Below, piece after piece: positions 6,105 through 34,685 of a stretch of 64,000 bases of DNA. Under the pieces are notes generated by a model. It saw nothing but the letters and a program-made list of their open reading frames with translations, was not told where the DNA came from and searched no databases. Within the stretch, counting starts at the first letter, position 1, and each line of letters starts with the position of its first letter. Position numbers and translations under genes: made by a program. Location: the NCBI GenBank assembly GCA_038030265.1, contig CM075938.1, positions 15,787,009-15,851,008 on the forward strand, read 5' to 3'. This stretch comes from Corythucha ciliata (lineage: Eukaryota; Arthropoda; Insecta; Hemiptera; Tingidae).

Positions 6105-7369
6105 ACTTGAGCTAGAGGTGAGGTGTGATTTCACTGTCGGTGAATTTGTCACTGTGACTACTCCGTCACTATTGGCTCCGGTGACGACCACATTGAAATC
6201 ACCGTTCCGACCCTCTAACGGTGACATTCCTTTTCACTTATAATCGCTTCTTCATTCGTCACTTCTATCGCTTCACTGCGCTAGTCTCTTGAATTAAAAT
6301 TGGAGCCGTCACCTAGCCATCCTCGCAGGTTACCACATAACACTTTACCAGTTCCTCTATTGCCCAATGAACTCAGTAGCATTCTCCCCAAGTCTATTGA
6401 CTTTTTTTCTTGGACTTATCGTTAGTATTGAACCTTTAGTGTTAATATATTAATATTCACTTCGTTTTCCAAGTCCTGTGCTACAGTAATCTTGCATAAT
6501 TTTACTTTATTTAAAAACACCTTCCTAGGCAGGGGCGAAGCCAGCCCCTGCCCTGTGGGCAGAATATGTCGGACGTTATGGAAACTAGAGACCCCAACAA
6601 AAGAACTGGTAGCGCAATGAATCGTCAAATGAGGAAGTAATACATTTTCCAAAATCATGCTGTCGTGATAGCTTGGGTACCAGAACTCATGAAAACACGA
6701 TCCGTTCATATAAAATCAGGCCCTAAATTTATTTATCAATTTTCAAAACTATTGAGTTGCGGGACCCATTTGAAATAGGCTAGATAGACTGATGACGTAT
6801 TAACAGCCTTCGCATGACCTTCACAATAGCTTCCCACAAATCAAACAATAGGACAATAGGACAAGAATGGGGCAAGACATGATAACAGCCATGAAGCGGA
6901 GGGTTAGGAGGGGTCACAACCCCTTAACTACGTCACGAGTCACAGACCGGCCGTTTAAGGAAACAAAAAAAATTGACAAGTTTTATTATTTCGCTATAAA
7001 TCGAAATCAATCATTTACGCACTAATATTCAACTCTTGGTCATATTTAGACATTTTCTTTCGAAAAAAATGTTTCCAGTGAATTTAATTTTTTATGTTAC
7101 TTCCTCATTCTTCCCCGGAAACTAAGTTTTCACGAAAAAGGGTCCTAATCCATCAAAAGCTAACATCTTCGTTCGGAAATTATCTCTTTTAGCCTTCTAT
7201 TCCTGATTTTCTATCCAAAAACTGACAATTCTATTCAGACTTTTTCTATTAACAGACAATTCGATTTCCCCGGAAATCGATACTTGGCATTAAATATACT
7301 TACAGGGTGACCGACTTTTCATCAACGTCTTGTCTGAGAGACGTAAAAATACAACATTTTTTAACCAAC

Positions 7370-7934
7370 CAATAACGGGTTTTAACTCAAAACTGACGTT
7401 TTTTTTAAAACAAAAAACTGAATATTTCACTCTAGTATAACTGAATATTTTACTTCAAAACTGACGTTTCTACGCCAAAGACGAAGTGTTTACGCCTAAA
7501 CTAAAAATTTCACAGCACAACTTTTAAAATCCAAGTCTTTACCCCAAAAACTGGTGGAGTTCCGCCTAAAAATGGCGGGTTTAACCAGAAACGGATCAAA
7601 AACGAATGAACTTAATAGTCTTAAACAGACCACTCAGTACTAAAAACTGCCGATTTTATCCTTCAATTGGCGATTTTAGTTAAAACAAAAAACGTACAAT
7701 TACTGGCCAAAGCTGACGTGCCTCCCCCCCTCCAAATTAAGATGCTACCACAAAACTGGCGAGTCTAACCTAAAACTAAACTTTACTGTTCCATTTCAAA
7801 AATGAATATTTTACACCCGAAACGACAATTTCCCCTCAAAATTAGATAATTTACTCCAAAACTGACAATGTCACTCTTGTTTTCCCCAAAACGGGTGATT
7901 TTAGGCCATTCTGCCTTGAAAACAGGTGATTTCA

Positions 7935-7971
<37 letters not shown>

Positions 7972-8220
7972 CAAATTCATCGCAAATGTGACGATTTTAT
8001 ACTAATACAAACGATTTCACGCCACAGCAGACGTGTTGCCTCATGACTGAAGACGATAATACAAAACTGGTCATTTTACCCCAAAAATTACGATTTCATC
8101 CAAAAAACGTTCCTAAACTGACGATTTAACCATGAAACTTGCGGTTCCACCCAAAAAATATCACTTTACCTCAAAACTGAATATTTTACTTCAAAATTGA
8201 CATTTTACTTTGTTGGGCAC
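7370..8220 (+). repeat. Degenerate tandem array, family L (core AAAACTGACGATTTTACCCC)
   Basis: Roughly 22-26 bp units built on 'aaaactgacgattttacccc', strongly diverged. An uninterrupted run of about 34 A at 7936-7969 sits inside it. It is cargo of the element 6530-9387. Confidence 0.75.
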
Positions 8221-8229
8221 AGCTTTTCA

Positions 8230-9060
8230 GAGCACAAAGAGTCAATTTTGACGATTTCAAGGCTGGAATAGCCATTGCCATTTTTAGGGCGCATAAAGTC
8301 AGTCTTTCCAGTTATAGGAGCGAATAGTACGTCCCAAGTCAAAGCGAGAACAGCCAGGTTGGCCATTTTCGGCGCTCCGAATGGTCTATTTTGCCATTTT
8401 CAGGGCAGGAGTCACTTGTTCAGACATTTTAAGAGATCGATTCGTCAGGTAATCCATTTCTAGAGCTCGTAAAGTATTAAATTCGGCAATTTCTAGGGTT
8501 CAAATATAGTAATTTTAGCCATTTTAAAGACACGAATCGTCAGTTTTGCCATTTTCAGGGACCAAATACCTAGTCCATCCTCCATCAAGCCAAGGCCATC
8601 CCTGCCTTTCAAGGATCAAGGTTTGACCATTCCTGGTGCGCAAATTGTCGATTTTGCCATTTTCAGGGAAGGAATCATCATTTTAGGCATTTCCAGGGCA
8701 CGTGAAGTCATTTTGGCCGATTTCAGGGCTTGATTAGTCCGTCAAGCCAAAAGCGCGCATTATGGTCATATATGGCTCAAGATTGGCCAGTTGATCTGAT
8801 CAATTTTAGCGCACGAATGGTTGATTTAGCTACTTTCGGGGGGTAATCATGATCTTTTTAGGCATTTTCAGAAGTTCACCAGTCGCCACCAATTTTTAGG
8901 GCACGTGAAGTCCAGTTTTAGCAATTTTCGAAACTCGAATCGACAGTTTTGTATTTTTGGGCGTTAGTTTAGTTACTTTAGCCGTTTTAATAGTGCAAAT
9001 TTCTAGTTTTTACTATTTTTAGGCAGAGAAAAGGCTGTCAAACCAGTTTTAATAGAGCGA
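8230..9060 (-). repeat. Degenerate tandem array, family J, reverse orientation
   Basis: About 30-bp units such as gccattttcagggcacgaat are the reverse complement of the J units at 28.1-29.5 kb. Units are too diverged for recent homogenisation. Confidence 0.75.
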
Positions 9061-9774
9061 ACCACACCATGTCTCTAGCACCTCTCATGAGCAATTACTG
9101 AATCCGCGTCTGTCTGCGAAAATGGTATTCTAGGACGCAAAAACGGCATTTGGTCTTTGAACTATGTCACCCTTGCGATATCCGTTTTGTGAGCGACTTT
9201 GTTTATTTTATTAGTGAAATCCGTTAAGTTATTATTTTAGTGAGCGCCGACGAAACAAAATGTGATTATCCTGAAAGATTCGTACTTTCAGAATGCATCT
9301 AGGGGTGGGAAACTGCCCCACTGAATCTGCATTTTTGAGTCTATGGGACAGCTGCCTAGCCCTGCCCTCCATCTGGCTATGCCTATGTTCCTAGTAAAAT
9401 TCGTGCATTGCAGTTTTTGATCCATGACTCACCTTCATGTTTGCATTTGAGGCTGTGGGTTCGCCGTGCATAGGAGTTTTCCACGGACAAAGTTAGAAAA
9501 ATAATTATATATTTTTTTATAACCGATGCAAAAACACGAGAGCTACGTGAGCTAGACAATTTCGTTGATAAACCTGACTAAACAGTGATAGTGACATTAA
9601 AAAGTTATAGAACAGGCTCTCTGTAGTCACTTCAGTGACAAAATCACTGGTTTTTGTCACAGTGACTGCACAGTCACCGGAGCTAGTTGTCACTGTGACC
9701 GACAAAAGATGTCACGCCACACCTCTAACTTGAGCCACCCAGCCCCTCTAACGTAAAAAAAAAAAAAAAAAAAA

Positions 9775-10894
9775 TCGCTCCGGCAGCTGGCCGTCGGAAG
9801 AGTGCATTTCATTCCGCATACGGATACCCTAGGCCGTCCCAGAAGTAATAATTTTGATACCATAATTTGTTTCATTAAGCCGAACTTCTTCCTCTATTTT
9901 CACCACCCTTTCTTCAAAATTTAGGAAAGTTATGATAGTTTTCCAAGGGCTTTGTGCCGTATTTTAATAAACGTGTGAATTTAAGCGATTTTATTGAAAT
10001 TTCATCCCCCCTACCATCAAAGTTTTCGATAAATCTCAATAGAACCCAGGGCTTTCGTTACATTAAATTATTGAGTCGAATTTTAGAGCGCTAATATGAA
10101 CTAGTGAAGTTCAACGCTATTTTTACACTTCCACACCGGAAGGACCACCCCCACCACCTTGACTTTTTCGAAAAATTAAAATGGGAATCAAAGGCTACTC
10201 TAACATGGAGTATTCGTACTGAATATGATGCATCTAGAATCAACTGGTGAATTATAGTGATTTTTTGACCATTTCAACCCCTATTTTCCCCCCTCCACCT
10301 TGACCGACTTGGCCCAAATGCAATACCGACTGGGGGTCTTATGACTACTGATTTTTGTGCCAAAGTGCGTTCCGCTAAATTGATTTCTTTGAGAGTTATC
10401 GTGCTAACAAGACCACAGACTTACTTCCACCCCGGGTGCACCACTCCCTCCACCATGACTTTTTAAAAAAATTAAAATGGGAATTAAAGGCTAGTCTATC
10501 ATGTAGTATACGTACCGAATATGATGCTTCCAGAATCAACTGGTAATTTGTAGTGATTTTTTGACCATTTCAAGCCCTATTTCCCCCATCCACCTTGACC
10601 GATTTGGCCCAAATGCAATACCGACAGGGGTCTTATGACTACTGATTTTTTTGCTAAAGCGCGTTCCGCTAAATTAACTTCTACGAGAGTTATCGTGCTA
10701 ACAAGAAAACGGCCATAAATATATATATACTAATATATACTTTTATATATGTATATATAAATTTCGGAGACCACTGAATTCGTGTTCTAGAGGTTCTGAA
10801 ACATGAAAAAAACATGCCATGACCCAAGTTTGACACCATCACGACAAGAGCATTTTGAGCACGAGTGCATTTTGACATAAATGAAATGCACTAA
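9775..10894 (+). mobile_element. Dispersed repeat D, copy 1, with 3' hairpin and internal duplication
   Basis: Begins TCGCTCCGGCAGCTGG right after an A run and ends in a hairpin (arms AGTGCATTT 10864-10872 and AAATGCACT 10884-10892) overlapping a terminal CTAA. The same sequence recurs at 38581-39298. This copy holds a tandem duplication of about 296 bp (10127-10422 and 10423 to about 10717). TC start, terminal hairpin and CTAA end recall Helitrons, though here the hairpin abuts the end instead of preceding it by about 10 nt. No coding capacity recognised. Confidence 0.7.
10717..10762. repeat. AT/TATA microsatellite
   Basis: Imperfect (AT)n with atatatatac and tatatgtatata interruptions inside dispersed repeat D copy 1. 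Confidence 0.8.
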
Positions 10895-10899
10895 AAACA

Positions 10900-11880
10900 A
10901 AGAATAGTGAGGAGAAATAGATCAAAACAGCAGGTTTTCTATGCATTCCAATGGAATATGGCAACATTTTTCAATTCTCCCTTCCCAACCTTAGTAATTT
11001 TAGTTATTAAATTAGAATTTGATTTGCTTTCAGGGATCTCTGACAACTCCGAGAAGGTGCTGCTGCCTTATGGGGAAAGGGTGGGCTAAAATACGAGTGA
11101 CTTTGCCGACGACTGTTTTATTTTTATACTATGGGCATTTCCTGACTTTTCTTGTAAGGACAAGAACTTTATCAAAGTGTCGTTATATTTTGTTTTTACA
11201 TTTTTATTGTGTGTTGGGGTAAAGCTCACGTCCCATTCGATGCCAATGCTTAAAATTAACTGGAAATCATTACCTGAATGAAATGCGGAGGAAAAAAGAG
11301 GTAAAATTTCGGCTTTTTGATAAGAAACGTTTCCGAATATCAGAAGAATCGTTTGTGATAGGTGCTCAGTACAGTTGCCGTTGGTGTGGGATCGTGGAAC
11401 ATCCATGGCCGAGGGGGTGGGATGGTGGAACATCCATGGCCAAGGGGGGGGGGGGCGTTAGGCCTCTTATTCTTATTTTAATTTTTACATACGACAACAT
11501 TTTTAATATAGGTATGTATTTATTTTTTCTCTGAACCACTTGGGCTGGTCTGCAGGCCTGGGTACGACGCACGAGGTTGGTCTCAGTTAGGACTTTGTCA
11601 TGCATTGCTAATTAGCTAGTCGCTGAATCTCTATTATACGCGATAAAATGAGGGAAACAATTTTAGTTTTCAAAGCTTTTTGATTTCCAACGACATGGGA
11701 AACAGCAGGCCATGAGAGCATGAAGTCAGGTGCTGATGGGAGGGATCGTGATCTCCTGCGCCATTCTATTCTCCTAGTATAATTGGGTGGAACGAAAACT
11801 GTCGGGGTAACGCAAAATCGTCATCGTCTCAGCTAGTGGACACGAAATTGTTTTTGAAGTTGTGAAATTGATTTGTAGGA
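10900..11880. other. No gene recognised
   Basis: Unique AT-rich sequence with short open frames on both strands, none with recognisable protein motifs. At 11387-11450 a unit of about 30 bp containing aacatccatggcc is tandemly repeated twice, ending in a long G run. Confidence 0.4.
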
Positions 11881-11979
11881 GAGCCAAATCTGCTTTTTTT
11901 TTTTTTTTTTCAATTGCAGAACCAAGAAATTTGTTTTGTGAAAATGAAACGATCACTTTTTGAGTCTTTTTGAATAGCA

Positions 11980-12909
11980 AATATTCTTTTTTCGATGACT
12001 AAAATTCATAAAATCCGTTTTTTCAGTAAACTGAACCCTCTGAAACCGTTGTTTTGAAGAATCAAACCCACAAAATTGATTTATTGAACGACTGTAAGGG
12101 ATTGGCTTATAATGCCCGTTTAAGCGGCGTTAGTGGTTGGAATGTTTTTGCATAAAAATGTACTAAATTCTAACTCAAAGGTGGAGGGGAGGTGTCAATT
12201 TCTTAAGGGGCGAGTTCGGAAGTGATTCCTCGACCCTCCTCCAGTCATGCCCAGCCAATGAGATGGACCCACATACGAGTAATTCACTTTTCCGGTGAGC
12301 CATACCAGTGGATTTGCTTTTTCGGTAAGCCAACCAATGCGTAATTACCCAGTAAGAAGCCAGACTTTTCAAGTAGATCAACCCCACTAAATTGTTCTTA
12401 TGTGTGCTATAATTCCATGATATTGGTTTTGAATGGTTCAAACCTACGAAATTTCGTTTTTAAAAATTGCCATACCCGCTCAATATCGCTCGTCTGTAAC
12501 ACGAGCCAACACCTTGGAAATGGCAGGAAACAAATGTGGGTGGGGGGGGGATCTGTTGGATTTTTCAGGGAGCTAGTCCCGCGAAAATTGTTTCTAATGC
12601 ACCCGAAAAATGAAATTTGGATTTTCAGTGAGCAAAAGCAATGGAAATGCCTTGAATGTTGTGCCTTGGAAATGTTCTTGAATTAACCAAACCCATGAAA
12701 TTGAATTATACGTACAAGTGTCAAAAGCACGAAGTTGACTCAGAAAGAGCGCAACTGGAGGAAATTGCTCATTTGAAGGTTAAAACCCGTGAAATACGCT
12801 TTTTAGTGAGTCATTCCATCGAAATCGGCCTTTTGAGTGAATCAAACCCGTGAAATTGGACGTGAGTTCCGAAAATTCGCTAGCTTGGGCTTTGAAGGGG
12901 CCAAACCCG

Positions 12910-12946
<37 letters not shown>

Positions 12947-12989
12947 GAGGGCAACCCATCGAAATTGCTCTTTACAAAGAACCCACCAC
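11980..12989 (+). repeat. Degenerate tandem array, family C, left part
   Basis: About 29-bp units of the type aaacccgtgaaattgg + tttttagtgagcc. It contains a run of about 35 T at 12911-12945. The same array resumes at 14610, so the element 12990-14609 split it. Confidence 0.75.
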
Positions 12990-13329
12990 CAGGGCCGGAT
13001 TTAGAGAACGAGAGGCTTCTAGGCCAGCTGATTGAGAAGGGCCCCCTTTTTTCAACCCCTCACCCCCCACCCAATGGGAAGGGGTCTTTTTTCATACGTG
13101 CGAGACAATTCCCTTTAGGTTATACATGATTATAATGGTGGTTTTCGTGGATTAGTTAATGAAACGTCATAAAAATATTCCGTCAGCCCACCGTATGAAA
13201 AATCCGGGTCATTTGATCGTGTCTAGCACCTGCGCAGGACGTTTTTTATGGTCTAGGCCTAGAAGATGACAGTTCTGAGGTCACCAGACATTTTCCGGGG
13301 GACAGGGGCTCACAACAGAGCTAGCTGTT

Positions 13330-13620
13330 GGCAAAAACGCCTTTTTTTAGGGCGCGAGATTCATTTTTTACATTATCAAGACGGAAATAGCCAGTTTGAT
13401 TATCAGTACGGCCATGTTTAAGGCGTGAATAGTCAATTTTGAACATTTTCCATGTGCGAAAAAGGCTAGATTGCCCATTTTTGAAGTTCGAATGGTCGCT
13501 TTTGTCATTTTCAGGGAAAGTATAACTATACGTTGAGTCTTTGGAAAGGCTCGAACTGTCAGTTTAGCTGTTTTTGTACCATACTATACTCATTTTTGCC
13601 ATTTAAATGACCTGAATAAA
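13330..13620 (-). repeat. Family J array, reverse orientation, inside a hAT-like element
   Basis: Units like gccattttcaggg...cgaatagtc with about 30-bp spacing. Short, with few units. Confidence 0.65.
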
Positions 13621-13799
13621 AAATGTAGCTGAACGGAACTAGCGCGGTACCAGGTGTGTGTGCCTTCTTCTCGCCCAGATTTGATGCTTTGGAGGGCACA
13701 TTGCCAGGGTTGGGTATCAATCAGGACTTCAGGGAAGTGATCTGGCACGTGCAAGTCCTGCGGCCTTGCCAGCTGGTCAACGCCGACAAGCTACCTATA

Positions 13800-14560
13800 C
13801 CCGTTAACGGGAATAAGCCCTTTTTCTCAATAAGGCGCGAATTAGCGTTATTAGTTTAATTTTAGACATCAATAATTAGCGTTATTCCTAAATTATACTA
13901 GCTAAACATGAATTTTTCCCAATTTCAGCCATGAATCGAGTTTTTCTCAATTTCTACAGCTAATTAGTGCTTTTTCTCAATTTTAGCCGCGAATTTGCTC
14001 TTTTTCTCAACTTTACACTGTGAATTAAACAATTAAAATTAATTGTTGCCACAATTTAGCGATTTTTTCACATTTAGCTATGAATTAACGCCTTTTTTCT
14101 TTGTTTTAGCCAGAAAGTTGATTCTAGACGAGGTTTTCTCAATTCTAGCCGTGAACTAGCGATTTTTCCCAACGTTGGCCACGAAATTGAATTTTTCCTC
14201 ATCTTAGCTGATGATTCACGATTTTTTTTCAATTTGATCCATGAATTAGCGCTTTTATTGGCTCAATTTCAGCCACCAATTTACGTTTTTAGCAGCTAAA
14301 TAGCCATTTTTCTTTATTTCACCAGTCCATTAGAGTTTTCGTACGCCTTTTCTATTCTTTATCCGTGAATTAGCATGTTTTCTCAAATCCCCCCCCCCTT
14401 TATAGCCCTTTTCTCTCACCCCCGCCATTGACACCTTCGCGAATTGGCGTTTCTATTAATTCAGTCAGTGAATGAGCCATTTTTCGCAATTTGAGCCGGG
14501 AATTATCGCTTTTCCTTTTTTTAGTAGCTAATTAGCGCTTTTTCCCAATTTTATCCAGAG
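13800..14560 (-). repeat. Family B array, reverse orientation, inside a hAT-like element
   Basis: About 28-30 bp units such as aattagcgctttttctcaat + tttagccgcg. They match the complement of the B units at 50.4-54.2 kb. Confidence 0.8.
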
Positions 14561-14609
14561 GCCCAGGGCGCCCGACTGACCGGGGCCCCTAGGCATAAAT
14601 CCGGCCCTG

Positions 14610-14935
14610 ACCAACACCCTGAAAATTGGGATTTTCAACGGGAGAAAATCTGTGAAGTTGGCCTTTTTAGGGAGCCAACCCCGAAAGATTGGTTTTGATG
14701 AAATGCAATACTTGCGAAAGGGTTTTTAAAAGATAAAAAACCGGCAGTAATGAGTTTTTTAGGCCGCTATAAAGGCAAAATTAGCTCTCGAATTACCTTA
14801 AATCCCGTGAAATTGGGTTCTATGAGTGTAATCCACTAAATTGAACTTTGAAATAGTCCAACCTTTGTGATCGCTTTTTTGAAGGACCCGAAAGGTGAGG
14901 GTGGGGATTTTGTGCCCCTTCGCCCCTCTGCAGAA
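14610..14935 (+). repeat. Family C array, right part
   Basis: Continues the units of 11980-12989 (gtgaagttggcctttttagg, gagccaacccc) after the 1.62 kb insertion. Confidence 0.7.
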
Positions 14936-15112
14936 AGCTTTTAACTCCACCAATGCACTTTAGTGAGCCAAAAATGGTTTTTTATTCGCCTCCAAGCGGC
15001 CTTCGGCCAGCGGCATGAGGGACCAACGCGTTAACCATGTCGAACGAGTAAGTTCCTCAGCTGTATACTGCCAAACTTTTTACTATGGCGTTTTTAACCA
15101 TCAACATTCGAT

Positions 15113-16504
15113 TCAAATCATGTCCTCCCCTAATGCCTGAAGTGACCTTTCGTATACTGCGTAAGCTATCATCATGGATGGCATGGATTTCATCAGGGCA
15201 GCTGGTAGCCCGCTGTACAATCTCTGAATTCCTTTCTTCTTCACTTTTTGGGCGAACAGTCTCAAATCGATTTTTTCGTCTGGGTGAAGTGAGAAATTTT
15301 TGTAGTTTTTAATTATGTGTCTTGTCGTAGAATGCCTAGCAGGGCCGACCGTTCCTCACACATTTCCAGCCTTCAACGATAAGCCTTAATATAGTGGGTA
15401 GTGCGGGGTGCGGACGGGTGTCGAATACCAACTGCTTGGCATTCTGATCGCTGCTTTTGATTCATACCTGCGGCCTGTAAATAGGTACTCGACAGAAAAA
15501 CTGGGTAGACTGTGACCATAGCTAACAAAGAGGCGACAGAGCCACACCCCATGCTAGTCGCGACGCTCATCTTTTCATTTTCTTTTTTGGACAGCCTTCT
15601 CAGGTGCTGTGGACGGGAAAATAATTCGTTAAAATACACTAGAAGGAGGATGATGAGGAATTGCCTCGTAGGTCGTTAAATCTATTGAGCTGAAAACGAA
15701 AATTCCGCAAATAGCCGTGAAAAATCCCTTGAAAAAGAATTTCCAGCCGTGTAATCGGTAGCCTCGTCTAACCACGTTCGGTATGCCCTTCGGCTCACCC
15801 GTTTTTCTCAGAACCAGTCTGGTTTTAACGACCTAATGAGGAGGGTATTTATTGAGTTCTCATTATACTGGTCAGTGCTGTGATTACCGATATTGGATGG
15901 ATGGCAATGTGAGAGGCTGTTCCCGCCAGGGCGGCCGCCAAGGCCCTGTCTTGTAACATCAACTGTTGATTACTGCCTCGTCTATATTCGATCAACTTTT
16001 TTTTCAAATGGTTGTACAGGGCGAATTTGATCGCAACTTCGGGGACAACGCCCAAACAATTCGTTCCGTTTCCTATTTTCATATTATGATGGAAAATAGG
16101 CCTGCAAATTGTATAGTCTGTACACTCTTTTGGAGGGAATTAGCGCTGTGCGGACATTCTTTTATATCCGGCCTGTGCTTTTTGGTGTGCAAGCCGTATA
16201 CAAGTTGGACTCACCTCGCCACATGCTAAGAACTCCGCCCTCTTTCAGCATCATCTTAAAACCCTCCCTCGGATAAATGGTTCTGCCACCGATTTGAGAG
16301 ATGATTTTGATGCGGTCAAGCGGTGCCGTCGCCGTACGGGCGACACCTCCGGCGAGCGCGCCAGCCACGAAATGTTTGAAGAAAGCGATCTGCGGAAGAA
16401 GAAACGTGAATTTGGAGGTAATTGTGGGTGGTGCTGTTGATTTTTAAAAAACCTACGTCATCTTGTTTGTAGTCGTGAACTAATTTTATATTAGAATCGG
16501 GCAT
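15113..16504 (-). CDS. SCaMC/SLC25A24-like mitochondrial carrier without EF-hands, complete six-exon gene
   Basis: Minus-strand exons are 16504-16457, 16389-16215, 16072-15888, 15832-15665, 15606-15468 and 15279-15113. They join in frame to 882 nt: 293 residues plus TGA. Introns are 67, 142, 55, 58 and 188 nt; four are GT-AG, while 15664-15607 uses a GC donor (GAG|GCAATT). The protein has the triplicated carrier plan. Signature one is PLDRIK (39-44), after AGALAGGVARTATA. Signature two is PISVVK (134-139), with Ser where Asp/Glu is usual. Signature three is PVFLSS (from 227), clearly decayed. WRGNG (73-77), PEVAIKFALY, TGEPKG, GIQRLYSGLP and a final AYAVYE match the SCaMC (ATP-Mg/phosphate carrier) branch of the inner mitochondrial membrane. 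Length equals a bare carrier domain, so the calcium-binding EF-hand region is absent. The first exon (MPDSNIKLVHDYKQDD) is the least certain. Substrate is inferred only. Confidence 0.88.
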
Positions 16505-19125: not shown

Positions 19126-19129
19126 GGAT

Positions 19130-19624: not shown

Positions 19625-19960
19625 AAACCACTGTGGTTAGACCTTTGCTGTGGTTGGGCCTTTGCTGTGGTTGCAGCTTTGCTGTGGTTGGACCTTTTCT
19701 GTGGTTGGAGCTTTGCTGTGGTTGTGACCTTTGCAGTGGCTTGACCATTGCTGTGGTTGGACCATTGCTTTGGTTTGACATTTCCTGTGGTTGGACCTTG
19801 GCTTTGGTTTAACCTTTGCTATGGCCGGACTTTCTTTGTGCTTGAGACGTTGCTGTCGCTGCAGGTTTTACTGTGGTTATAGCTTTTCTGGGGTCGAACC
19901 ATGACTGTGGTAGGGCCTTGTGACGTCATTGTACTGTGTTGAGGGCCTTCTTGGTGGTTT
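19625..19960 (+). repeat. 17-bp minisatellite, family M
   Basis: More than a dozen consecutive units of the form CTTTGCTGTGGTTGGAC. Most are exactly 17 bp, with a few 16-18 bp variants, and it decays rightward. Confidence 0.85.
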
Positions 19961-20331: not shown

Positions 20332-21558
20332 CAGTGGCGGTTTTTCAGCTGAGGCAAGGTAGGCATCGCCTCAGGAAGAAAAACGACAGAATTCAAGGGT
20401 TAAATTAATAATAAAAATACCTTTTTTGGTTTTAAAAAACGAAAAAAAGTCCTGTGAACGGTCACAAAAATTAAGTTTGCCTCGGGTGTCCTCTAGCGGC
20501 TGCGTGGACACTTATATTAGTTGAATTGGTCCTCTTCATTGACGGTAGTCGTACAGATCCAAAGATGCCCCCTGAGAAACCGATGGGCGAGGAAACAATA
20601 TGTTAACCGTTGCCTAAGGTGCCTTGATGGGGGGCGAGTAGAGGAAAGGGCAATGGTACAGGGGGGGGGGCTCGTGAGATATAGAACATTCTTGCCAAAT
20701 GGCATTGCTTAATGATTTTTTGAAAAGTTGGCCTTTAACTTCCGGACTATATCAATCTCGTGAGTTATCGGGCCGGCAGTCGCGACAGTGTGATACCTAC
20801 TTGTACGTGGGGGGCAACTACGAAAGTGTGTTATAATTTTAACACGGCGTCATCCTGTCACAATTAAAATGGTTGTCAGTGGATACCACCACTCAGTACA
20901 GTTTCATAATAAACACCCTTTCGTACTTCAGCCCCTGATTAATTGTTTCCGTTTCTGTTCTTGATCCTTCCCAACTGTGAGTAGAAAAACATCTTTTAGT
21001 CAATATTTTTTATTCTATTTGGCACTTAACACTTCAATAGTCTTCTTACTGAGGTAAAAATGAATCATCCTGGAGATATCATTTGTATGTGGATAGAAAC
21101 TCCGTTCCACTCAAGGGAGGAATTTTATAGATTTAATTATTTGATGTAAATAGACCCACCCTAAAAATAACCCGTAAATAAAAAGGGTCAAATTGTTTCA
21201 AATTCCATGCTCTGGGATCTAGGTACTCGTGAGTGAACTTGCTAAGAGCTGCACGTTGAAATAACTATTCGTCTAGCCATCACTCTCACCCGTCCTTACT
21301 TTGCATTGCAAGGGAAACGGGACCCGAAAAATCTGAAAACATTAATCACTGAATGATTTTTCCAGTAGCGGGGAGAGAGGGCTGTATTAAGAGGCAATTG
21401 ACGCTATGCGTGTATGGGTCGTACTCAAATAATTTTGTTCTATGTATGTTGCGCTCTATCTTGTTCTGTTCTGTGCTCAGATGTGATGGTATGGGCTGTG
21501 TGGAGGGGCGGAAGGGGTATCGCCTCACTTGTTTTTGGCCCCTAGAACCGCCACTGGA
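20332..21558. mobile_element. hAT-like non-autonomous element (CAGTGGCGGTT termini)
   Basis: Left end CAGTGGCGGTT and right end AACCGCCACTG (with a single difference just inside) are flanked by GAAGACAG (20324-20331) and GAATACAG (21559-21566), 7 of 8 identical. Near both ends are further inverted phrases (gaggc...atcgcctca / tatcgcctcac). The 1.2 kb interior has no transposase and no tandem array, in contrast to the other elements here. Confidence 0.82.
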
Positions 21559-23420: not shown

Positions 23421-23585
23421 TTCTATGGCGTTTGGTGGAACTCTCCGGGAAGGATTTCAAAGTTTGATAAGGAATGTCAAAGCCCCATCCTATTTGATAT
23501 TCCCCTGTAGTCAAATGGAATGAAAAATAAATTGGGCCGTAACCATAACGGGTTGCTCCAGGGAGCACGACCGATTTCAGGAAAT
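23421..23585 (-). CDS. Candidate internal or terminal exon of an unrecognised protein
   Basis: A good acceptor (CGTTTTTGCAG) precedes an open frame reading FLKSVVLPGATRYGYGPIYF and then TTGEYQIGWGFDIPYQ. A donor-like GTGAGAG follows at 23420; reading through instead gives a stop at 23323-23325. Composition is aromatic and glycine-rich, unlike the lysine/phenylalanine-rich shadows of the arrays. It faintly recalls small secreted insect domain proteins with an LxxP...G start, but I cannot assign it. Neighbouring exons were not found. Confidence 0.38.
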
Positions 23586-23599
23586 CTGCAAAAACGAAG

Positions 23600-25590: not shown

Positions 25591-25597
25591 AATTCTG

Positions 25598-27812
25598 CAG
25601 TGGCGTAGGTAGTAATTTGTCCTGGGGGGGGGGGTCAGATTGAAATCTTGTACGGGTGAGGGGAGGGGGCTAATTTCACATTTTAGTCATCATTCCACCC
25701 AGCTAGCACACTCTTGAATATGGACATCATGCTGGCCTCATCATAGCCTCAATCTCTCAGTTAGGGGCGATTTTTGGACTCTACCCGCAAATTAGCACTT
25801 TTTGGCCGAGTGTATCGTTCTTATCAATATCAGCCGGCGGTTTTGCCCCACCCCCTTCCATAGCCATGCATTTGCTCATTTTCTCAACTTTAGCAGCAAA
25901 GTATCGTTTTCATCCCGTGAGCGATGTTTCTTAACTATCCACGAGTTTAAGAGTTTTAGCGTTTTCCTCAATTTCACCAGCATATTACAGATTTTTAAAA
26001 TTTTTTTAACAGGGGATTAGCACTTTTCTCAGTTTTAGCTGGGAATTAACGTTTTTCTCCAGTGTTTTCCACAATATTAGCTGCAAAACATGGGGACTTT
26101 TCACGAATTAAGCTTTTTTTTAGTTCACCAAACGCAATGCATGAGCGATTTTTCTCAGTTTACTCGCGAATAAGCGGTTTCTTCGTCTATTGCTATAAAT
26201 TAGCGTTTTTTTTCAATTTCAGCCTGAAAAGTTGCCTTCAGAATCCGCAAATTGGCGTTTATTCAGTTTTTGGTGCAAATTTTTCTCAATTTCAACCACG
26301 AATTAGCGCTTTTTTAAAATTGTAGCGGTGACGCGTCGTAGCGTTTCATACATGTGCATTAGCGAATTTTCTCAATTTCAGTCACAAATTGGTGTTTGGC
26401 GCAATTTTAGCTGTAAATTGGTGATTTTTTCCATTTTTAGCCGCAAATTAGCAATTTTCTCAATTTTGAGGCTTAAAATTAACCTTTTTCTTGATTTTGA
26501 CCAGGCTGATTATTTTATTTTCTAAATATTACCCGCAAATTAGCGGTTTTTCACGTTTTACCACCGCATTAGCAAAACTATATAACTTTTATAGGTATAG
26601 ATTATTCCTTCTTTTCAGCTCTAGCTGTGAATTAGCGTATTTTTTTAACATTATACTGTAGCCGTGCATGAATTTGCCATTTTTCTGAATTTTAGCCACA
26701 AAGTGCCTTCAGAAGGTGTGAATTTAAATTATAAATGTACAATTTTTTTTTTTACCAAAAAAGTTCACCTATCCGTCCATTTCTGTCATAAAATCATCAT
26801 TTTTAAATTATTAATTTCACGACACTTAATTCCAGAATTAGTGATTTTTCTCAATTTTAGCAGCGAATTTTCGCTTTTTCTAAATTTTAGTAGCGTGGTA
26901 GCGTTCTCAACCTGTGCACTACCTACCGAGTTTCGCCAAGAATTGGCGTTTGGCTCGATTTAAGCTGCAAGTTAGCAATTTTTTCCATGTTCAACTGAGA
27001 ATTAACACGTTTCCCCAATTTGAACTGAAAATTAACGTTTTTCTTAATTTTAACTGCCCTAATTGGTGATTTTTTCTATTTTAGCCGCGAATTAGTGTTT
27101 TTCTTCATTTTCTATCCGCGAATTAACGTTTTTCCACAACTTTATATCTGCAAATTGCAAATTAGCGATTTTTCGCAATTTCAGCTGTGAAATAGCGTTT
27201 TGTGCTAATTTTGCGGCCATTCAGCATGCTATTCCCTTTTGTTATACGCGAATGGGCAATTTTACGCCATTTCAGTTGTGAATTTGCCATTTTAGTCCAA
27301 TTTTAACCGGAAAGCGTCTTTTATTTCTCAGTATTATAGCGTGTTTTCTCAACTTTAACCACAGGGTTTACCCAAGTACAACACTTTTGCGTTGGTTTAC
27401 ACAATTTATTCGTAGAATGGCCTCCATGTACCGCGAATCAGCGATTTTTTTCTTAATTTTAGTCTGGAAGTTGCATTACAATATCACGAATCAGCGCTTT
27501 TTAGCAGCTATAGCCACGAATATTACCGATTTTTGTCTGATAGAGGGTCCGGGGCGACTCCCCCCCCCCCCGTACCACGGTACACTATTGCGTTGGGTCT
27601 CATGTCCGAGGAAAAAGCTGGACGTACTTGGTTCTTTTTCGGGCTGCTTTAAGACCAGAAAATCTGCTAAACCTAACTTCAACGTGAAACGCTCATTTTT
27701 TGAGATTTTATGGGGCCTCTCGTTATGGTACTAGTGCTCCTTCGTTCGTACACTTGTAGCTCCGGGGGGGGGGGAATCTATCCCCCATATCCCCCCCGTA
27801 CCTATGCCCCCG
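25598..27812. mobile_element. hAT-like element carrying a long B array
   Basis: The left end CAGTGGCGTAGGTA matches a right end whose complement is CGGGGGCATAGGTA (10 of 14). G/C runs lie just inside both ends. The flanking 8-mers TTCTGCAG (25593-25600) and TTCTACAG (27813-27820) agree 7 of 8, but that placement would put the left boundary at 25601, 3 bp inside CAG. The conventional boundary gives only 4 of 8. Boundaries are therefore uncertain by a few bases. The interior is mostly a reverse-orientation B array. Confidence 0.65.
25780..27540 (-). repeat. Family B array, reverse orientation (about 1.8 kb)
   Basis: Units like gcgaattagcgtttttctca + attttagcc, 27-31 bp. Variant units with 'ccttcagaa' recur at 26.23 and 26.70 kb. 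The 27238-27300 segment (cgaatgggcaattt, then tttcagttgtgaatttg) is collinear with 59240-59310. Confidence 0.82.
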
Positions 27813-28019
27813 TTCTACAGTGCATAACAATTGAACCCCTGAAACTATGAACATTATTCTGCCTACTACTGGCAATTTTGTTCTCAGAGACAGATCATTC
27901 AGTTGAAAATGAGTCTTTGGAGTTTGGATATGACCATTCTTCTCTCCTGGTAGAAACTGGCAACCTCCCTTTTCCTATAACACACTGCATTATGTGTTCT
28001 AAGAAAATTGCCCTTAAAA

Positions 28020-29675
28020 CAGACGTGGATTCAAAATTTGCTCAAGGGAGGCGCTTGAAAAATTGTGTGCTTTGATCTGTTGAAAATGGCTTGACAGTCA
28101 TTCGCCGACTAAAAATTGCTAAACTATTAGCCATTCCCACACGGTTAAACTGAGTAATAATCGCGCCCCAAAATGACTGAACTGGTAGTGCTCGCTTTGT
28201 AAATGGCCTAACTGCTATTATTCGCGCCACAAAAACAGCTAAAATGACTATTCGCGTTACAAAATGGCGAAACTGAGGATTCTTGATTTGAAAGTTGTTA
28301 AACTGAATAGCCAAACTGACGATTTTCGCTCTAGAAAGTGCTAACCTGGCTTCACCCGAGCTCTCAAAATGGATAACCTGACGATTCTCTCCCTGAAAAT
28401 GTCTGAACAGGTGATTCCTGATCCTGCGTGCACTGGAAATTTCGAAATGATTCGTTACTGTGCCAAAATTGGATAAACTGACCATTCTTGTCTTGGCTGG
28501 ACGTACTGTTCGGGTCGTGTAAATAGCAAAAATGACTCTACGCGTCCTAAAAATGACCAAACTGATTATTCAAGCCGTGAAATCGACTAAACTGACTCTA
28601 TGCGCCTCGAAAATAACTAAATTGACTATTCCCTCCATCCCTGTCCTTATAATGTCCAAATAACGGACCATTCGTGCCTATGAAATAGCTTAAACTGGCA
28701 ATTATCGATCAAAAAATGGTTGTACTGGCCATTTTGACCCTAAAACATCAATACTGAAGATTAATGCCCTTTAACTATCTAACTGACTATCAACTCCTTT
28801 ATGAATGACCGTACCCATTGACAATATGAGCGCTAGAATCGCACCCTACAATTGGCTTGACGGACTATTCGCACTGTAAACCTGGGAAAATTGACTATTT
28901 GCGTCCACGAAATGGTTGAACTAACAATGATCCTGTACTGAAAATGGTAAAATCGCCCATTCCCGCGTCTAAAAAGCCTATCGGAGCCCTCATGCTTTGA
29001 AATTTCAATTGACGATTGGTGCCCTACAGAGACTGAATATGGTGTTGATGTTGATAACGATTCACGCTTTCAAAAATTGCTATATGCACAAAACAAAAAT
29101 AGCAATACATGGCTAATCATGTCTTAAAACGATAAATCGAAATCGATCGCCGGTGTTGCGCACCGAGTGGGGGTGTGCCGTTCCGACTTTCCCCACTGAT
29201 TGACCTCCCCTATGTTAAATGTATACGCACCCTAAAGGCTGGATAAACTTACTACTCAAGCACTATAAAATTGCTTGACTGACTCATCAGTCACTACACA
29301 CTAGAAACGGGGACCGTTCGTGTCCGGGAAATGGAGAAACTTGTCCCATTCATTCTCCAAAAATGGTCAAACTGAGCCTTCGCACTTTGAAAATGACTAA
29401 AATGAAGATGATTCGTGACCTAAAAATAGTCAAACTGGTCATTTGCACCTTGCAGGTGGCCTAACTGACGATTCATGCCATTAAAATGCTTAATCGTGAC
29501 ACGCCAAGTTTTGTTATCAAATAATCGCAGGCATGCGACTGAACAGGCAGTTTATGACACGGAATCACAAGTTTTGGGGTTGGATACATTTTTGAGGATT
29601 TTACGATTTCCTGACCTTTTCTGGAGCCCACGTGAGATTCGGGATCCCTTGAGCTCTTTGCTGGATCCACGCCTG
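28020..29675. mobile_element. hAT-like element of the J family, copy 1
   Basis: Starts CAGACGTGGATTCA and ends with the complement of CAGGCGTGGATCCA (12 of 14). The inverted similarity continues (GCTCAAGGGA on both sides). Flanks are CCTTAAAA (28012-28019) and CATGAAAA (29676-29683), 6 of 8. The interior is a J array plus a non-tandem island at about 29021-29220. No transposase. Confidence 0.8.
28080..29480 (+). repeat. Family J array, forward orientation
   Basis: About 30-bp units with core AAAATGGCTAAACTGACGAT followed by tcgcgccct, cargo of the element 28020-29675. Confidence 0.8.
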
Positions 29676-29993
29676 CATGAAAACATGAGTTCAACAAAAA
29701 CTACCAAAAATTGGGACAATCCGAAAATGACAAGTTTGCCCCAGGGCATGACTATACCGTAAGAGAAAAAATTATTTCTGACCTCTTCGAGTGATTTAGC
29801 CGCAAGACTTGACTACTGCCCCCCCCCAACAGAAAAATAGGCAGATTGACTCAGAAACAGAGACGATTAATTTCTTTACAATTGGATTATTCGAGCTTGA
29901 AAATCTATAAAATCTGACCCTGGTCTAACTAGTGAATCTCGACAAGAGCTAAGTACGCAGATCTCGACTGGCCACTCTGGAGTCGACCTAATT

Positions 29994-30531
29994 TCATGTC
30001 AATGGCGAAATGCTCATTTTTGACAGTTTGACGGGTCCTGAAGATGCATTTTGCCCGGGTACGACTGGCATTGTCAATTGCTCACTGTCCGAGGAACTTT
30101 TATGAACTGCTTCCGGCTGAAATTGAAACCACTTGGATAAAATAACTCTGACAATCGCAGTCTCCTCTTTATTAGAGGGTCCACGAGTGGAGGGCCACAC
30201 AATCCAAAGCACACGGACCTCCAGTATCCACTCTGGAACTCGAATAACCCGTGAAAAACAAAAGACAACGCTAATCACTCTTAAGCAGTTTGCTCTTGTC
30301 CCTGTCTCGGCGAGGAACCTCTTAAATCACACATCTTGCGAAATGGCTTTAAAACTTGAGTCTGTGGATTATTTTTGTGGGTGGAAATGGCCAGAATTCA
30401 ATTATAATTGGACTAAACGTCGCACGTGCTGCGAGGAATTTCACGAAAAACGGCAATTTCCAACCGCAACCGACAATTGGTTAATTGTTTTTAGAGCAAA
30501 CGAAAATTTACCATTGAATCAAATTGTTTAG
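29994..30531. other. Coding-like patch with overlapping open frames on both strands
   Basis: On the plus strand 30133-30531 is open for 132 codons, ending WLIVFRANENLPLNQIV. On the minus strand two frames are open: 30278-29994 (ending GPVKLSKMSISPLT) and 30268-30074 (CGPPLVDPLIKRR). A tract TTTCAATTTCAG on the minus strand could be an acceptor. The patch is non-repetitive and GC-richer than its array neighbours. I cannot decide which strand, if any, is coding. Confidence 0.25.
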
Positions 30532-30649
30532 CTTCTAAATTTTTTAATTATTATCTCCGAAATGAACCTCGTGTTCATTTCGTTCTAAACAGACGATGTG
30601 GTCAATTAACATGTTTCGGAGGTTAACACTCAGAGTGGATAGCTATAAG

Positions 30650-31890
30650 TATAAAGTTACCAGATTCAGGGCTAAATAGCCGGGAAATTTCAAGCAGTGG
30701 CCAAAGAGTCGAGATTCGATGGATAAATAACCACAAAATTCACGTTTCAAGGCTAAACATCCGTCATAAATGCAAGTTTAGACGTGAAACTGTATGCTTG
30801 CGACTGTAAAATGCCGTGAAATCAATATTTTAGAGATAAAAACGGCGATTTAATTTTTCTTCTGAACGCTATTAACAAGTAAGTCAATCAATAAACAAGT
30901 TGTACGGTCAAAAAAGAACTGAATTTGCAACATTCAGGTCGTCGCGAAACACTACTTTCGGAGATGAAAATCCGTGAAATTGCCAGTTTCGGGTTTAAAT
31001 ATTGATCAGTGAAATACTACGTTTCTGGTAATTTCTTTCGGAAAATGACTAGTTCAGAGGCTCTTTCTTTTACATTGTATATTATAGGCGTGAACACCTG
31101 GAGTCGATAGAGTCCAGTCTAGCCGATCCTGAGAGCTCCCAATGCTTGATGAATAGCCTCTAAATTTCATCATTTTGAGATAAATATCGGCGAAATTGTA
31201 AGTTTCAGGGAAGAATATTCTAGACATTCTTCTAGTTTATGTTCTTAATTTTTCATAATTGCAAATTTTTTTTTTGTTTTGTTTTCTTTTGACGCGCCAA
31301 CCTGGGCCTTAGCTGCGGCGCTAGCAATGCCCAATGTTTGCCGACCTCAAAATCTTTGAAATTGCTAAATTCCGTGGAACTGCCGGGCCCCTTCTCAGTT
31401 TATACCGTGGAGCCTGGGTGAACCGTCCCCGACAGCGCCGCAAAGCCCGAGACAAATATTGCCACGAAATTACATCACCCGCTCATATAGAAATTTCGAA
31501 ATTGCTAGACCCAGGGATAATTATTTGCAAAATTCCTCGTTTCCGGTCTTTATTTTCGAGAAATTGGTTAATTTCAGGTCAACATTTGCGCGAAATTGCT
31601 AATTTTCAGTCTTCATGCTAGCGAAATATCAAGTTTCTGGGTCCTTGTTTATTGGCGCGGACCTTGGGCATGCCGGCCCTGACTCAGCTCATAGACTGAC
31701 GAATAGCCGTGAAATTGCAACATTTAGAGATAAATATTTGTGATTTTGTAAGTTCATGGCCCTGTAGTAGGTTCATGGAGTTTCAGGTTTTAAGCGAAAT
31801 TTCAAGCTTAGGGTCCTTGTTTCAGCGAAATTGCATGTTTTGGAACCTTTTTTTATAGCGGCGTAACCCAGGATAGCCGGCCTCAAAAGC
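30650..31890 (+). repeat. Family F array with higher-order spacers
   Basis: Diverged units such as ttcgtgaaattgcaagtttc with about 28-45 bp spacing. Between groups of units sits a GC-rich spacer of the form ctgggctagccggcc followed by agctc...caatg, seen near 31115, 31300, 31655 and 31870 and again at 39412, suggesting a higher-order repeat of a few hundred bp. Confidence 0.6.
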
Positions 31891-32029
31891 ACCCAAAGCC
31901 AGGGGCGGTTTTATACCTGCGTGATGGGGGTGGCGGTAAACGTTTCTCCCCCCGTTATTAAAAAAAACAAACAGTAAAGCCCACTTTACCAAATGCCGTG
32001 ACTTTGGCCCTTTTAGACCACAATGTCGC

Positions 32030-32202
32030 TACGGGAATTTGGTTCGAGCAATTCGTGATTAGAACGGTCTGTGATCTGAACATTTTGTTGTTCGAGCATC
32101 GTTTGGATTGAGCATTTTGTGGTTGAATAATTTTATGGATAGGACATGTGGTTCAAGCATTTTTTGGACAGAGCGTTTTGTGGTTCAAACATTGCGTTTT
32201 TC
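32030..32202 (+). repeat. Family G array, left part
   Basis: Units of about 16-20 bp, GTGGTTCGAGCATTTT. They resume at 33923 after the nested insertion. Confidence 0.75.
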
Positions 32203-33922
32203 CAGTAGCGTACCGATGTAATGGCGAGAGGGTCGGATCGTTCTTTTACACCGTCCACAGGGGCCTTCCAAAAGAAAGCTCAAAGATGAACAAAAGAGGA
32301 TTTTTGGGATTTAAAGCGGTGATTCGTGGCTAATATCGAAATCAAGTGCTCATTTACCACTAAAATTAACAAAAAGGGTACACTAATTTGAGATAACTGC
32401 AAGAAACTTTGCGGCTTAATTAAAGAAAATACGCCAACCACAAATTCATAACGGCGACTAAATTGGAAAGACATGGAAAGACATTTCATTAGAGTAATGA
32501 AAAGGTGCATTCGCGGCTAAATAGTGAAAAAGCGAAAATTTATGACAATGACCGCGTTGCAAAACTTCAGACTTGTTCAGCGCTTAATGAGTACTTCCTG
32601 TCTTTTGCCGTTGCAAAACTGTCAATCTAGCTCAGCGCTGAGTAAGTGTTTAATAATCCAACAAAACATGTTCCGAGGTGTTTCGGTAGCCTTTTTCATC
32701 GCGATGAAACCTTTCTGCCCTCTTTTTTTCAAAGTTGCCATAAAAGTTCAACGATGGTTGACAACAAAATGAAGGAAGGAATATAGTTAGTTTTTAAGTC
32801 ATACAACTTGATTAATATTTTATTTTTAGGGTTTTGGCTTATTGCAAAATTAAGCCCACAGCCTAAATATAAAATATCAATGAAGGAAAGGAAGTTACTA
32901 ACCTTCCGATAACGGGGAGGTGAAAACACACAAATCACCGTTGCAAAACTCCAGTAAGCACTTAATTCTACGCTTCAGCGTTTAAACACGAGCCCCGAGT
33001 TTTGCAACGCAACCATTCATTGGTAGTTAGTGCCCAGAAAGCGCTAACACACGATTTCTCAGGAAAACTCGACTAAATTGAGCAATCCCGGCAATTCTTA
33101 GCAAAAAACTTGAGTAAAGTTCTGAATCGTGGCTAAAATGGAGTAAAAACGCTAATTTGTGGCTAAGATGAATAAAAACGCTTTGTTGAAATAATTTGAT
33201 AAAATCTGCAGATTCGTGGCTGCAATTAAGTAAAAACGGTAATTCTTCATTTAAAACTGAGAAAGTATTGGGGGCTAAAATTGACACAATCGCTTGTGCG
33301 CAGCAAGAACTGAAGAAACGGCACGATACGCGGCTAAAATTGAGAAAAAATGCGAATTCACGGATATATTTTCGAAAATCCGCCGAAACTGAGAAAAACT
33401 GCCGATTACTATTTGAAACTTAGCACCATGATACGCAGCCAAAACATGAGAAAAGGCTGTATTTCACGGCTAAATTGACAAAAGCGCTATTTCGCATGGC
33501 TGAGAAGTGAAAAAAAAAAAAAAAAGCGGTGACTTGAATAGATACATTCGAAAATCCTGCAGATTCGCGGCTAAATCTGTGAAAAAAAACTTTGATTCAC
33601 GGATAAAGCTGACATAAAACACTAGTTCGCGGAAAACGCTAATTCGCGGGTAAATTTGAGAAAATCTGGAGTTGAAATTGAGTAAACGTGGTAATCTTCG
33701 GCTGAAATTAAGAAATTGTTCGCGAATAAAATATAGAAAAAGCGCAAATTTGCGGCTAGAACTAAGAAAATGCCAATTAGCAGTACCCAAAAAGCAACTT
33801 TGCGGCTGAAATTTGAAAAAGCCATAATTTAACGCTAAGTTAAAATTAAATTCCTCGTAGGCCTCGTCAGGGGCCGCGTACAGCTGTCCACCCGGGCCCC
33901 GGTAGATTGTGGTCCGCCACTG
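32203..33922. mobile_element. hAT-like element carrying a B array, inserted in the G array
   Basis: The left end CAGTAGCGTACC and the complement of the right end CAGTGGCGGACC agree at 10 of 12. Both flanks are G-array units, which independently supports insertion. The 8-mers adjacent to the ends (CGTTTTTC / CGGTGGTT) match only 4 of 8. The GC-rich stretch near the right end (ccgggccccgg) resembles that near the right end of 12990-14609. Confidence 0.65.
33050..33845 (+). repeat. Family B array, forward orientation
   Basis: Units such as attcgtggctgcaattaagt + aaaaacgct, 27-30 bp, inside the element 32203-33922. Upstream at 32560-33020 a phrase 'gttgcaaaact.cag' recurs and ends in an inverted copy (gagttttgcaacg). 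Confidence 0.75.
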
Positions 33923-34130
33923 CGGTGGTTTAAGCATTTTGTGGTTTGTGCATGGCGTGGTTAGAGCTAGTTTTTTGTGGGTCAAGCATTAATTTTGGTC
34001 AGCGATTTTTGTCGAGCATCGTGTGGTTCGCGCATTTTGTAATTTTGAGTATTTCGAGGTGTGGATTTTTTGTGGTTCGAGCATTTCATGGTTTGAGTAT
34101 TCGGTGGTTTGAACATTGTGGCAAGGGATC
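33923..34130 (+). repeat. Family G array, right part
   Basis: Same GTGGTTCGAGCATTTT units as 32030-32202. Confidence 0.75.
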
Positions 34131-34685
34131 CCATTTTTTTTTTGATTTGGGCTCCTAAAAAAACAAGTCTCGTTGGTTTGGATCTTCTGCAAGCACAAAG
34201 TTTGGTGGATTTGGCCGCCCCGAACTACCTGTGCATGTATAAGCCCGCACGACCCCAATCCTTGAAAGTGTTGAAGTGTTAAGCGGACATCGCAATGGGG
34301 TCGCGGGGATGTTCACTGAAAATTTCTGAATGTGATATAAGGCGTGGGCTTTTTTATTTACTTGAGGTTAGTGATTTTACTCAAAAAAACAGGAAGAGGA
34401 GGCTGCGATCCCTACTCCATCCCCTTAAAACAATATATCATCAATACCATATCATATTTCCCTTTCCTCACATTTTCGTCCGTTTAATTCACTTTCTCTT
34501 CTTTTCTATTCGCTCCCATTTCTCCGAGGGTGGCGATCGCACTTATCACCCCCCTAAAACCACCCCTGCCCCAAAGCCTGACCTTCGAAATCCACAAGAT
34601 GGCACCTTGCGGGTTTTAATTTCTGTGAAACTACAAGTTTCGGAATTTCATTTTTATTATGAATATCGACCGTCTATTATTTAAG

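Follow-up and report, generated by a model that had tools for sequence, protein, structure and literature searches.

Degenerate minisatellite arrays as the probable bodies of non-autonomous hAT-like DNA transposons in Corythucha ciliata

Introduction

DNA transposons of the hAT superfamily are defined by 8-bp duplications at their flanks and by short termini, and termini of the form (C/T)A(G/A) are hAT-like; 8-bp duplications alone do not decide the superfamily. In rice, transposons are reported to propagate minisatellites, to go by the title of a 2004 article by Inukai. Here we analyse a stretch of 64,000 nucleotides (referred to below as the window) from the genome of Corythucha ciliata (Hemiptera, Tingidae; assembly GCA_038030265.1, contig CM075938.1, C2:15787009-15851008), in which degenerate arrays of 16-31-bp units lie between hAT-like inverted termini. 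Very probably these segments are hAT-like DNA transposons of several non-autonomous families, with bodies made of old tandem arrays, that have spread by transposition and nesting.

Non-autonomous hAT elements such as Mar of Drosophila and BuT2 (PMC3517528, PMC3942097) are alike in 8-bp duplications, short (C/T)AG termini, lack of coding capacity and dispersal; in the elements described here, however, 50-87% of the body is tandem array, and unit types are common to families with different termini. Transposons with internal tandem repeats are already known, as a preliminary description of the window had pointed out. The foldback element Tetris of D. virilis is also a non-autonomous DNA transposon propagating internal tandem repeats (PMC4079207), and Galileo of Drosophila likewise has internal tandem repeats (PMC4168063; PMC4079207). 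Tetris, for which a Mutator affiliation has been suggested, carries ~220-bp units in long inverted termini and seeds satellite arrays (PMC4079207), whereas here the degenerate units of 16-31 bp lie in the interior and the termini are short. Galileo belongs to the P superfamily, and its repeats are located within long termini and have been reported to contain transposase sites (PMC4079207). The TPE repeats of hobo (PMC4807377) are tandem repeats in a hAT element too, but they are coding and lie in the transposase frame. Finally, the periodic An/Tn clusters of C. elegans (PMC7725773) resemble the arrays described here in consisting of non-coding A/T tracts with a regular period.

In the open literature (about 5.39 million papers), covered through titles and the openings of abstracts, none of the papers listed describes several hAT-like families whose shared minisatellite bodies are degenerate and helically phased. 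The scale, the sharing of units across families and the helical phasing look new.

Results

Tandem arrays between hAT-like termini

The preliminary description, made from the window sequence, had placed degenerate arrays between hAT-like termini in five segments, designated here A inner (6530-9387), B (12990-14609), C (25598-27812), D (28020-29675) and E (31900-34253; see Table 1). This observation was confirmed. Recomputing the 8-bp flanks gave exactly the values claimed for four of them (7/8 for A inner; 6/8 each for B, D and E), and 4/8 for C. Of the first 15 terminal bases, 14 match in B (whose 14-bp termini had been called perfect), 13 in A outer, a larger element around A inner (see below), 12 in D, 11 in A inner and in the window copy of C, and 9 in E. 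An unbiased scan for terminus pairs (CAG/TAG heads at both ends, at least 11/15 terminal bases, at least 6/8 flank bases, 200-6000 bp) returned 9 pairs in the window, compared with 2.3 on average for 12 first-order shuffles; for the top-scoring pairs the figures are 5 and 0.67. It picked up B and D, i.e. two of the five segments, as well as A outer (6113-9727). By chance, a flank pair matches at 6/8 or better in 0.5% of cases and at 8/8 with a probability of 0.00002. Arrays form half or more of each segment (61% of A inner, 64% of B, 80% of C, 87% of D and 50% of E). The window contains a further hAT-like terminus pair at 20332-21556 (CAGTGGCGGTT, 12/15, flanks 7/8), but unit hits do not occur between its ends in groups of four or more.

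By local autocorrelation, many parts of the window are periodic at about 30/31, 20/21 or 16/17 bp. Seven unit-type profiles were built from hand-marked arrays, pooled from the same window arrays. Hits of at least 8 bits were strongly enriched for the X unit (176 vs 5.9 shuffled and 14 reversed) and the Y unit (101 vs 1.9 and 4), with a more modest excess for the Z (72 vs 15.4 and 18), Z' (45 vs 9.6 and 9), 21-bp (54 vs 11.4 and 6), 20-bp (95 vs 29.2 and 59) and 16-bp units (24 vs 5.4 and 4). As the profiles came from the same arrays, these counts are in-sample; flanks sampled at 29 loci and a sample of family C termini (see below) serve as independent tests. The flanks are 58 stretches of 1,480 bp found via a separate mobile repeat, so that this sample, with two overlapping loci, is not strictly random. 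Unit hits of at least 10 bits cover 17.9% of the window (reversed 2.2%) versus 4.8% of these flanks (reversed 1.2%), i.e. the window is array-rich relative to the sampled loci. The marked array regions amount to 39% of the window, interruptions included; their spans and unit counts are approximate, having been obtained with a lax gapped aligner inside hand-picked regions. A gapped wraparound scan of the whole window, in which controls scored as high as the window or nearly so, was dropped, and ungapped unit scoring with controls was used instead. The Y, 21-bp, 20-bp and Z' units resemble one another above each of 20 column permutations, the likeness of X to Y is slight, and the 16-bp unit is like none (a weak comparison, as the best of two strands was set against a one-strand null).

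Families A, B and C are dispersed in the genome

Genome-wide evidence (400.9 Mb in 57 contigs, seven of them of 31-72 Mb) concerns families A, B and C, that is, three of the five segments, and D and E are known from the window. Searching with 6530-9387 yielded 91 matched pieces among 40 scored of 5,588 candidates, the long single-piece matches aligning through the array at 86-92%. The flanks of A inner recur elsewhere (on both sides in L004, with single-base differences, and in L007; on the right side in L002), and the match extends to ~6113 and ~9727 in most of seven other loci. The copying unit is therefore larger and corresponds to A outer. The hAT-like bounds and 7/8 flanks proposed for A inner stand, but this segment is a nested passenger of the larger element. 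Both ends could be placed in four of the seven loci (L003, L004, L006, L007), with duplications of 1, 5, 2 and 1 of 8, respectively; L007 has no terminal motif on the left, and the duplication of L004 would fit given a one-base insertion. Ten further copies were fetched, four of which had both ends, three with 8/8 duplications (GTTTTCGA, GTTGGGAC, TAGCCTTC) and one with 5/8, and six had one or both ends missing. Window included, four of nine A copies with both ends placed have a perfect duplication.

The terminus of B, CAGGGCCGGATTTA, occurs 108 times in the genome (3 times for the reversed pattern), and the window copy is inserted within a 31-bp Z array. Among 30 fetched loci (including the window), seven possess both ends, with duplications of 8, 7, 6, 6, 3, 2 and 0 of 8 (the window copy is one of the 6s), as compared with a mean of 2.45 and a maximum of 5 for mismatched pairings of the same flanks. 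Copy L109 (4.7 kb) has perfect 14-bp termini and a 7/8 duplication, and is an array-bearing nest, in which 25 X-unit hits point one way and 27 the other; it contains no frame of more than 129 aa (frames were not searched against a family library). Duplications at 6-8 of 8 are found in five of eight B copies with both ends.

Copies of C mostly end in CAGTGGCGTAGGTA / CAGGGGCGTAGGTA. The search with C gave 55 matched pieces among 40 scored of 6,197 candidates, and 13 of them, including the window copy, span the query from 1 to at least 2195 in one piece; the best-scoring copies align across the array at 82-90%. The window copy is without duplication, whereas most fetched relatives have one: ten copies outside the window were listed as covering 1-2213, and in eight of these ten the duplication matches at 7-8 of 8 (best of six offsets, three of the eight with the right end set one base further out). 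Four of the eight (L079-L080 and L083-L088) share the flank CCCCAAAC and therefore travel inside a larger repeat, so that the eight copies stand for five independent sites.

The exact 14-bp C terminus CAGKGGCGTAGGTA has 1,894 occurrences in the genome versus 2 for the reversed sequence. Every fifth of 100 listed termini (C1, 2.0-20.9 Mb) was sampled by terminus alone (n = 20, one already known from the C search), and an array was called if a stretch held at least 4 hits of one unit type. Arrays were present 300-900 bp inside the terminus in 12/20 cases and 100-700 bp outside in 4/20 (one-sided Fisher p 0.011), with a unit-hit coverage of 27.2% inside (reversed 3.5%) versus 10.3% outside (reversed 1.6%). 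All 12 arrays have the same orientation relative to the T- or G-type terminus (p 0.0005). The random placement of termini relative to arrays that the preliminary description had named as evidence against itself was thus not seen in family C. In the dispersed copies the tandem array is colinear with and integral to the element, and the many dispersed copies of A outer, B and C agree in their ends but not in their flanks, some of them having 8-bp duplications, which supports the proposal that hAT-like elements carry the arrays. The arrays lie inside the elements, as had been claimed, but as an integral part of each family rather than as loose cargo.

Array units predate the spread of the elements

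Pairwise similarity among eight copies of A is 94.5-98% (gaps ignored), and these copies differ from the majority base at ~1.4% of positions outside arrays and 1.9-2.5% inside. The agreement of array units with their consensus is no better than about 70-80% (72-74% of array positions in family A). Given such close copies and such worn units, the arrays were already worn when family A spread; the units predate by far the bursts in which they were dispersed. In the window arrays, units are 53-64% alike and adjacent units are no more alike than distant ones; these arrays show no sign of recent slippage or homogenisation, nor of a Tetris-like expansion into homogeneous long arrays. Units of the same array are about as alike as those of other arrays of the type (X, 0.558 vs 0.551, 8 arrays; Y, 0.534 vs 0.535, 5 arrays). 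The arrays compared belong to elements whose termini differ or whose ends are unassigned, and choosing the units by profile score gives consensus-like ones an advantage in both groups. Positions of family A arrays that match the consensus change less than mismatching ones (2.2 vs 3.2%; 1.7 vs 2.6%), and selection on these arrays was not seen, as whole arrays change more than non-array parts. Transitions are frequent at the CpG columns of the X unit. Decay of methylated CpG is nevertheless not supported as the source of unit wear, the window showing no CpG depletion (observed/expected 1.01).

Helical phasing of A/T tracts

The An/Tn clusters of C. elegans have a period of about 10 bp and are known from nematode germline genes, not from transposon arrays. 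A/T tracts resembling them, with a ~10-bp period, occur here in the arrays other than the 16-bp ones, although two of these arrays are stronger at 30 bp. In 16 of 20 array regions the AA/TT signal is strongest at 9.8-10.5 bp; X12 and the D array, where it peaks near 30 bp, and both 16-bp arrays depart from this. AA/TT autocorrelation peaks at 10, 20, 30 and 40 bp, and pooled arrays have a relative power at 10.2 bp of 0.32 versus 0.02 shuffled, with an autocorrelation spread of 0.091 versus 0.020. The period is also found, more weakly, outside the marked arrays, with a relative power of 0.11 in the rest of the window and of 0.22 in the sampled flanks, which hold some arrays (autocorrelation spread 0.025 and 0.022; shuffled 0.021 and 0.012, respectively). 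For all six 20/21- and 30/31-bp types, not all of which are mutually independent, no other of the first seven harmonics of the unit profile is as strong as the 10-bp one (permutation p 0.0006-0.022; AA/TT phased at 10-10.5 bp), while the 16-bp profile is unphased (permutation p 0.91). Phase coherence of X arrays is 0.113 versus 0.274 in arrays simulated from independent draws. Real arrays hold the phase worse than simulated ones, and the phase is therefore a decaying legacy, not visibly maintained; active upkeep was not seen in this comparison.

Transposases and superfamily

hAT transposases are plentiful in the genome: at least 150 matches to PF05699 pass the cut-off (all 150 scored of 655 candidates), with frames of up to 955 aa. 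An autonomous relative combining the same termini with a hAT transposase, which the preliminary description had proposed to look for, was not found among the listed termini and transposase matches. The distance to the nearest transposase match is 21.8 kb for B (among 100 termini and 150 matches listed) and 77.8 kb for C (among 100 listed termini, all on C1, and 150 listed matches), and with lists of this scope a partner may exist for either. For this reason the hAT label rests on the form of the termini and on the duplications. Short (C/T)A(G/A) terminal inverted repeats are present, and 8-bp duplications were found in part of the copies for A outer, B and C, and in the window for D, E and A inner. 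The locus L110 (C4:28788000-28791600) encodes a 559-aa frame with PF05699; with many GAGACCGA-like short direct repeats at its downstream end, it apparently represents another hAT family with subterminal repeats. Named relatives of one transposase of this genome are mostly from insects (butterflies/moths, wasps, an aphid, a beetle, a fly), besides one fish and one plant (74 matches, 7,997 candidates scored).

Elements D and E and other features of the window

D3 has X-like sequence on both sides (on the left side judged by eye). In E, an X array lies between two 16-bp arrays, which suggests a second nested element (nesting judged by eye). A ~470-bp dispersed inverted-repeat element at 32545-33017 interrupts E. 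Its relatives end near TGGCCGCGTTGCAAAACT / AGTTTTGCAACGCAACCA, it is about 91-94% identical at 29 fetched loci, and two copies lie head to tail on C6. In a search with the whole of E, almost only this inserted element matched besides the window.

Units of a 17-bp minisatellite at 19631-19919 (CTGTGGTTGGACCTTTG) are more uniform than those of the other arrays, and it is therefore perhaps younger. A non-array repeat occurs twice in the window (9763-10894 and 38569-39298; 80-88% identity), one copy adjoining element A. A tRNA-Thr with anticodon GGT, unusual for a eukaryotic nuclear gene, is predicted at 38012-38086, overlapping one arm of a 120-bp inverted repeat (37770-37889 / 38042-38161, 97.5%).

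Table 1. Elements and arrays in the window. Array spans are approximate; a dot in the strand column means that none is given. The 21-bp array and the X arrays of the last two rows have unassigned ends.
Feature	Position	Strand	Remarks
A outer, non-autonomous hAT-like	6113..9727	.	termini TAGAGGTGAGGTGTG / TAGAGGTGTGGCGTG, duplication ACTTGAGC 8/8
A inner, CAGGGGCG-type, nested in A outer	6530..9387	.	TTCCTAGG / TTCCTAGT, 7/8; two arrays
~476-bp insertion in window A inner	6631..7106	.	missing from other listed copies (match query 1-101 + 578-2858)
20-bp array of A inner, unit AAAACTGACGATTTTACCCC	7308..8210	+	
30-bp Y array of A inner	8217..9061	+	unit scoring
31-bp Z array, host of B insertion	11906..12983, resumes 14611-14976	+	unit scoring
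B, hAT-like CAGGGCCGGATTTA	12990..14609	.	14-bp perfect termini, 6/8 duplication; Y array 13339-13618, X array 13808-14559
C, hAT-like CAGTGGCGTAGGTA ... TACCTACGCCCCTG (form common in copies)	25598..27812	.	X array 25767-27537
D, hAT-like CAGRCGTGGATYCA	28020..29675	.	12/15 termini, 6/8 duplication; Y array 28068-29500 minus
E, CAGGGGCGG-type	31900..34253	.	weak termini 9/15, 6/8 duplication; 16-bp arrays 32014-32197, 33918-34125; X array 33068-33856 minus
D2, diverged D relative	42296..44412	.	left end 76% to D over 74 bp; Y array 42401-44412; no right end found
21-bp array	44502..45915	+	autocorrelation, unit scoring
D3, diverged D relative	49578..50320	.	left end 76% to D over 87 bp; Y array; no right end found
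X arrays	50442..53773	-	unit scoring
X arrays	58506..62350	plus up to ~59.8 kb, minus from ~60.2 kb	unit scoring

Discussion

Dispersed copies that share their termini, 8-bp duplications at part of them, arrays that are colinear and of fixed orientation, and a nest that spreads as a whole were all observed here and make it very probable that the arrays are the bodies of non-autonomous hAT-like transposons. Several results weigh against this. A inner spreads with A outer, i.e. via a larger repeat and not by independent insertion, and the four C copies with a common flank spread in the same way, as a second nest moving as a unit. Good duplications are missing in five of nine A copies with both ends placed, in three of eight B copies with both ends and in two of the ten fetched C copies, and eight of 20 C termini have no array 300-900 bp inside. 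The matches listed include no autonomous element that has these termini, and the transposase locus L110 appears (by eye) to end in ...CGTGAAACACTA beside the GAGACCGA-like repeats, a different terminus. The assignment of D and E, based on evidence from the window, is provisional.

If the arrays were ordinary dispersed minisatellites and hAT-like elements preferred to insert into or beside them, one could understand why B sits in a Z array, why D3 and the C copy L075/L076 are flanked on both sides by X-like sequence (partly judged by eye), and why array density outside C termini is twice that of the 29-locus sample. The excess of arrays inside C termini, however, together with their fixed orientation to asymmetric termini and the alignment of copies across array and ends with differing flanks, makes this very improbable; for family C, target preference is largely refuted. 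That the elements should belong to a different superfamily in which 8-bp duplications also occur (P, Merlin, some Mutator) is very improbable as well. It would agree with the failure to find a transposase with these termini among the listed matches, and Tetris, with duplications of 8-10 bp, has been suggested to belong to Mutator (PMC4079207), but the hAT-like (C/T)AG form, the short termini and the abundance of hAT transposases with long frames in this genome point to hAT.

A different question is whether the arrays are a working part of these elements, either as phased A/T tracts (through curvature or nucleosome phasing, in the manner of An/Tn clusters) or as multiplied transposase-binding sites aiding synapsis or the escape from silencing. 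This is attractive in view of the AA/TT phasing in all six 20/21- and 30/31-bp unit types, the autocorrelation peaks at helical multiples, the occurrence of one unit type in families with different termini, and the extra transposase-binding sites held by the internal tandem repeats of Galileo (PMC4079207). Nevertheless, we regard it as unlikely, because family A arrays change faster than non-array parts (1.7-3.2% vs 1.35-1.4%), the X phase is being lost, a weaker 10.3-bp period exists outside the marked arrays too, and the 16-bp array is unphased. Quite unlikely, in our opinion, is that phased A/T-tract arrays are an adaptation of a hAT lineage, curving DNA, phasing nucleosomes or binding transposase and in this way aiding transposition or silencing escape; such an adaptation would explain the recurrence of a few unit types, two or three helical turns long, in families that differ in their termini.

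For the arrays as transposon bodies, the following course of events is proposed. Arrays of a few unit types may have been homogeneous at first and have lost this uniformity by the time of the recent bursts. A hAT transposase encoded elsewhere in the genome would presumably recognise the CAG/TAG termini and mobilise the elements in trans. The element would then be excised and re-inserted with an 8-bp duplication, the already degenerate array being copied around the genome as one block. Insertion of one element into the array of another produces nests, and these ride as passengers of the outer element.

The elements described here represent a route by which degenerate minisatellites fill a genome, namely as transposon bodies, nested and re-spread long after the arrays ceased expanding. 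This suggests that annotation viewing such DNA solely as tandem repeats would miss the transposons. With its about 1,900 exact termini, family C offers a test case of whether a transposon benefits from helically phased tandem DNA.

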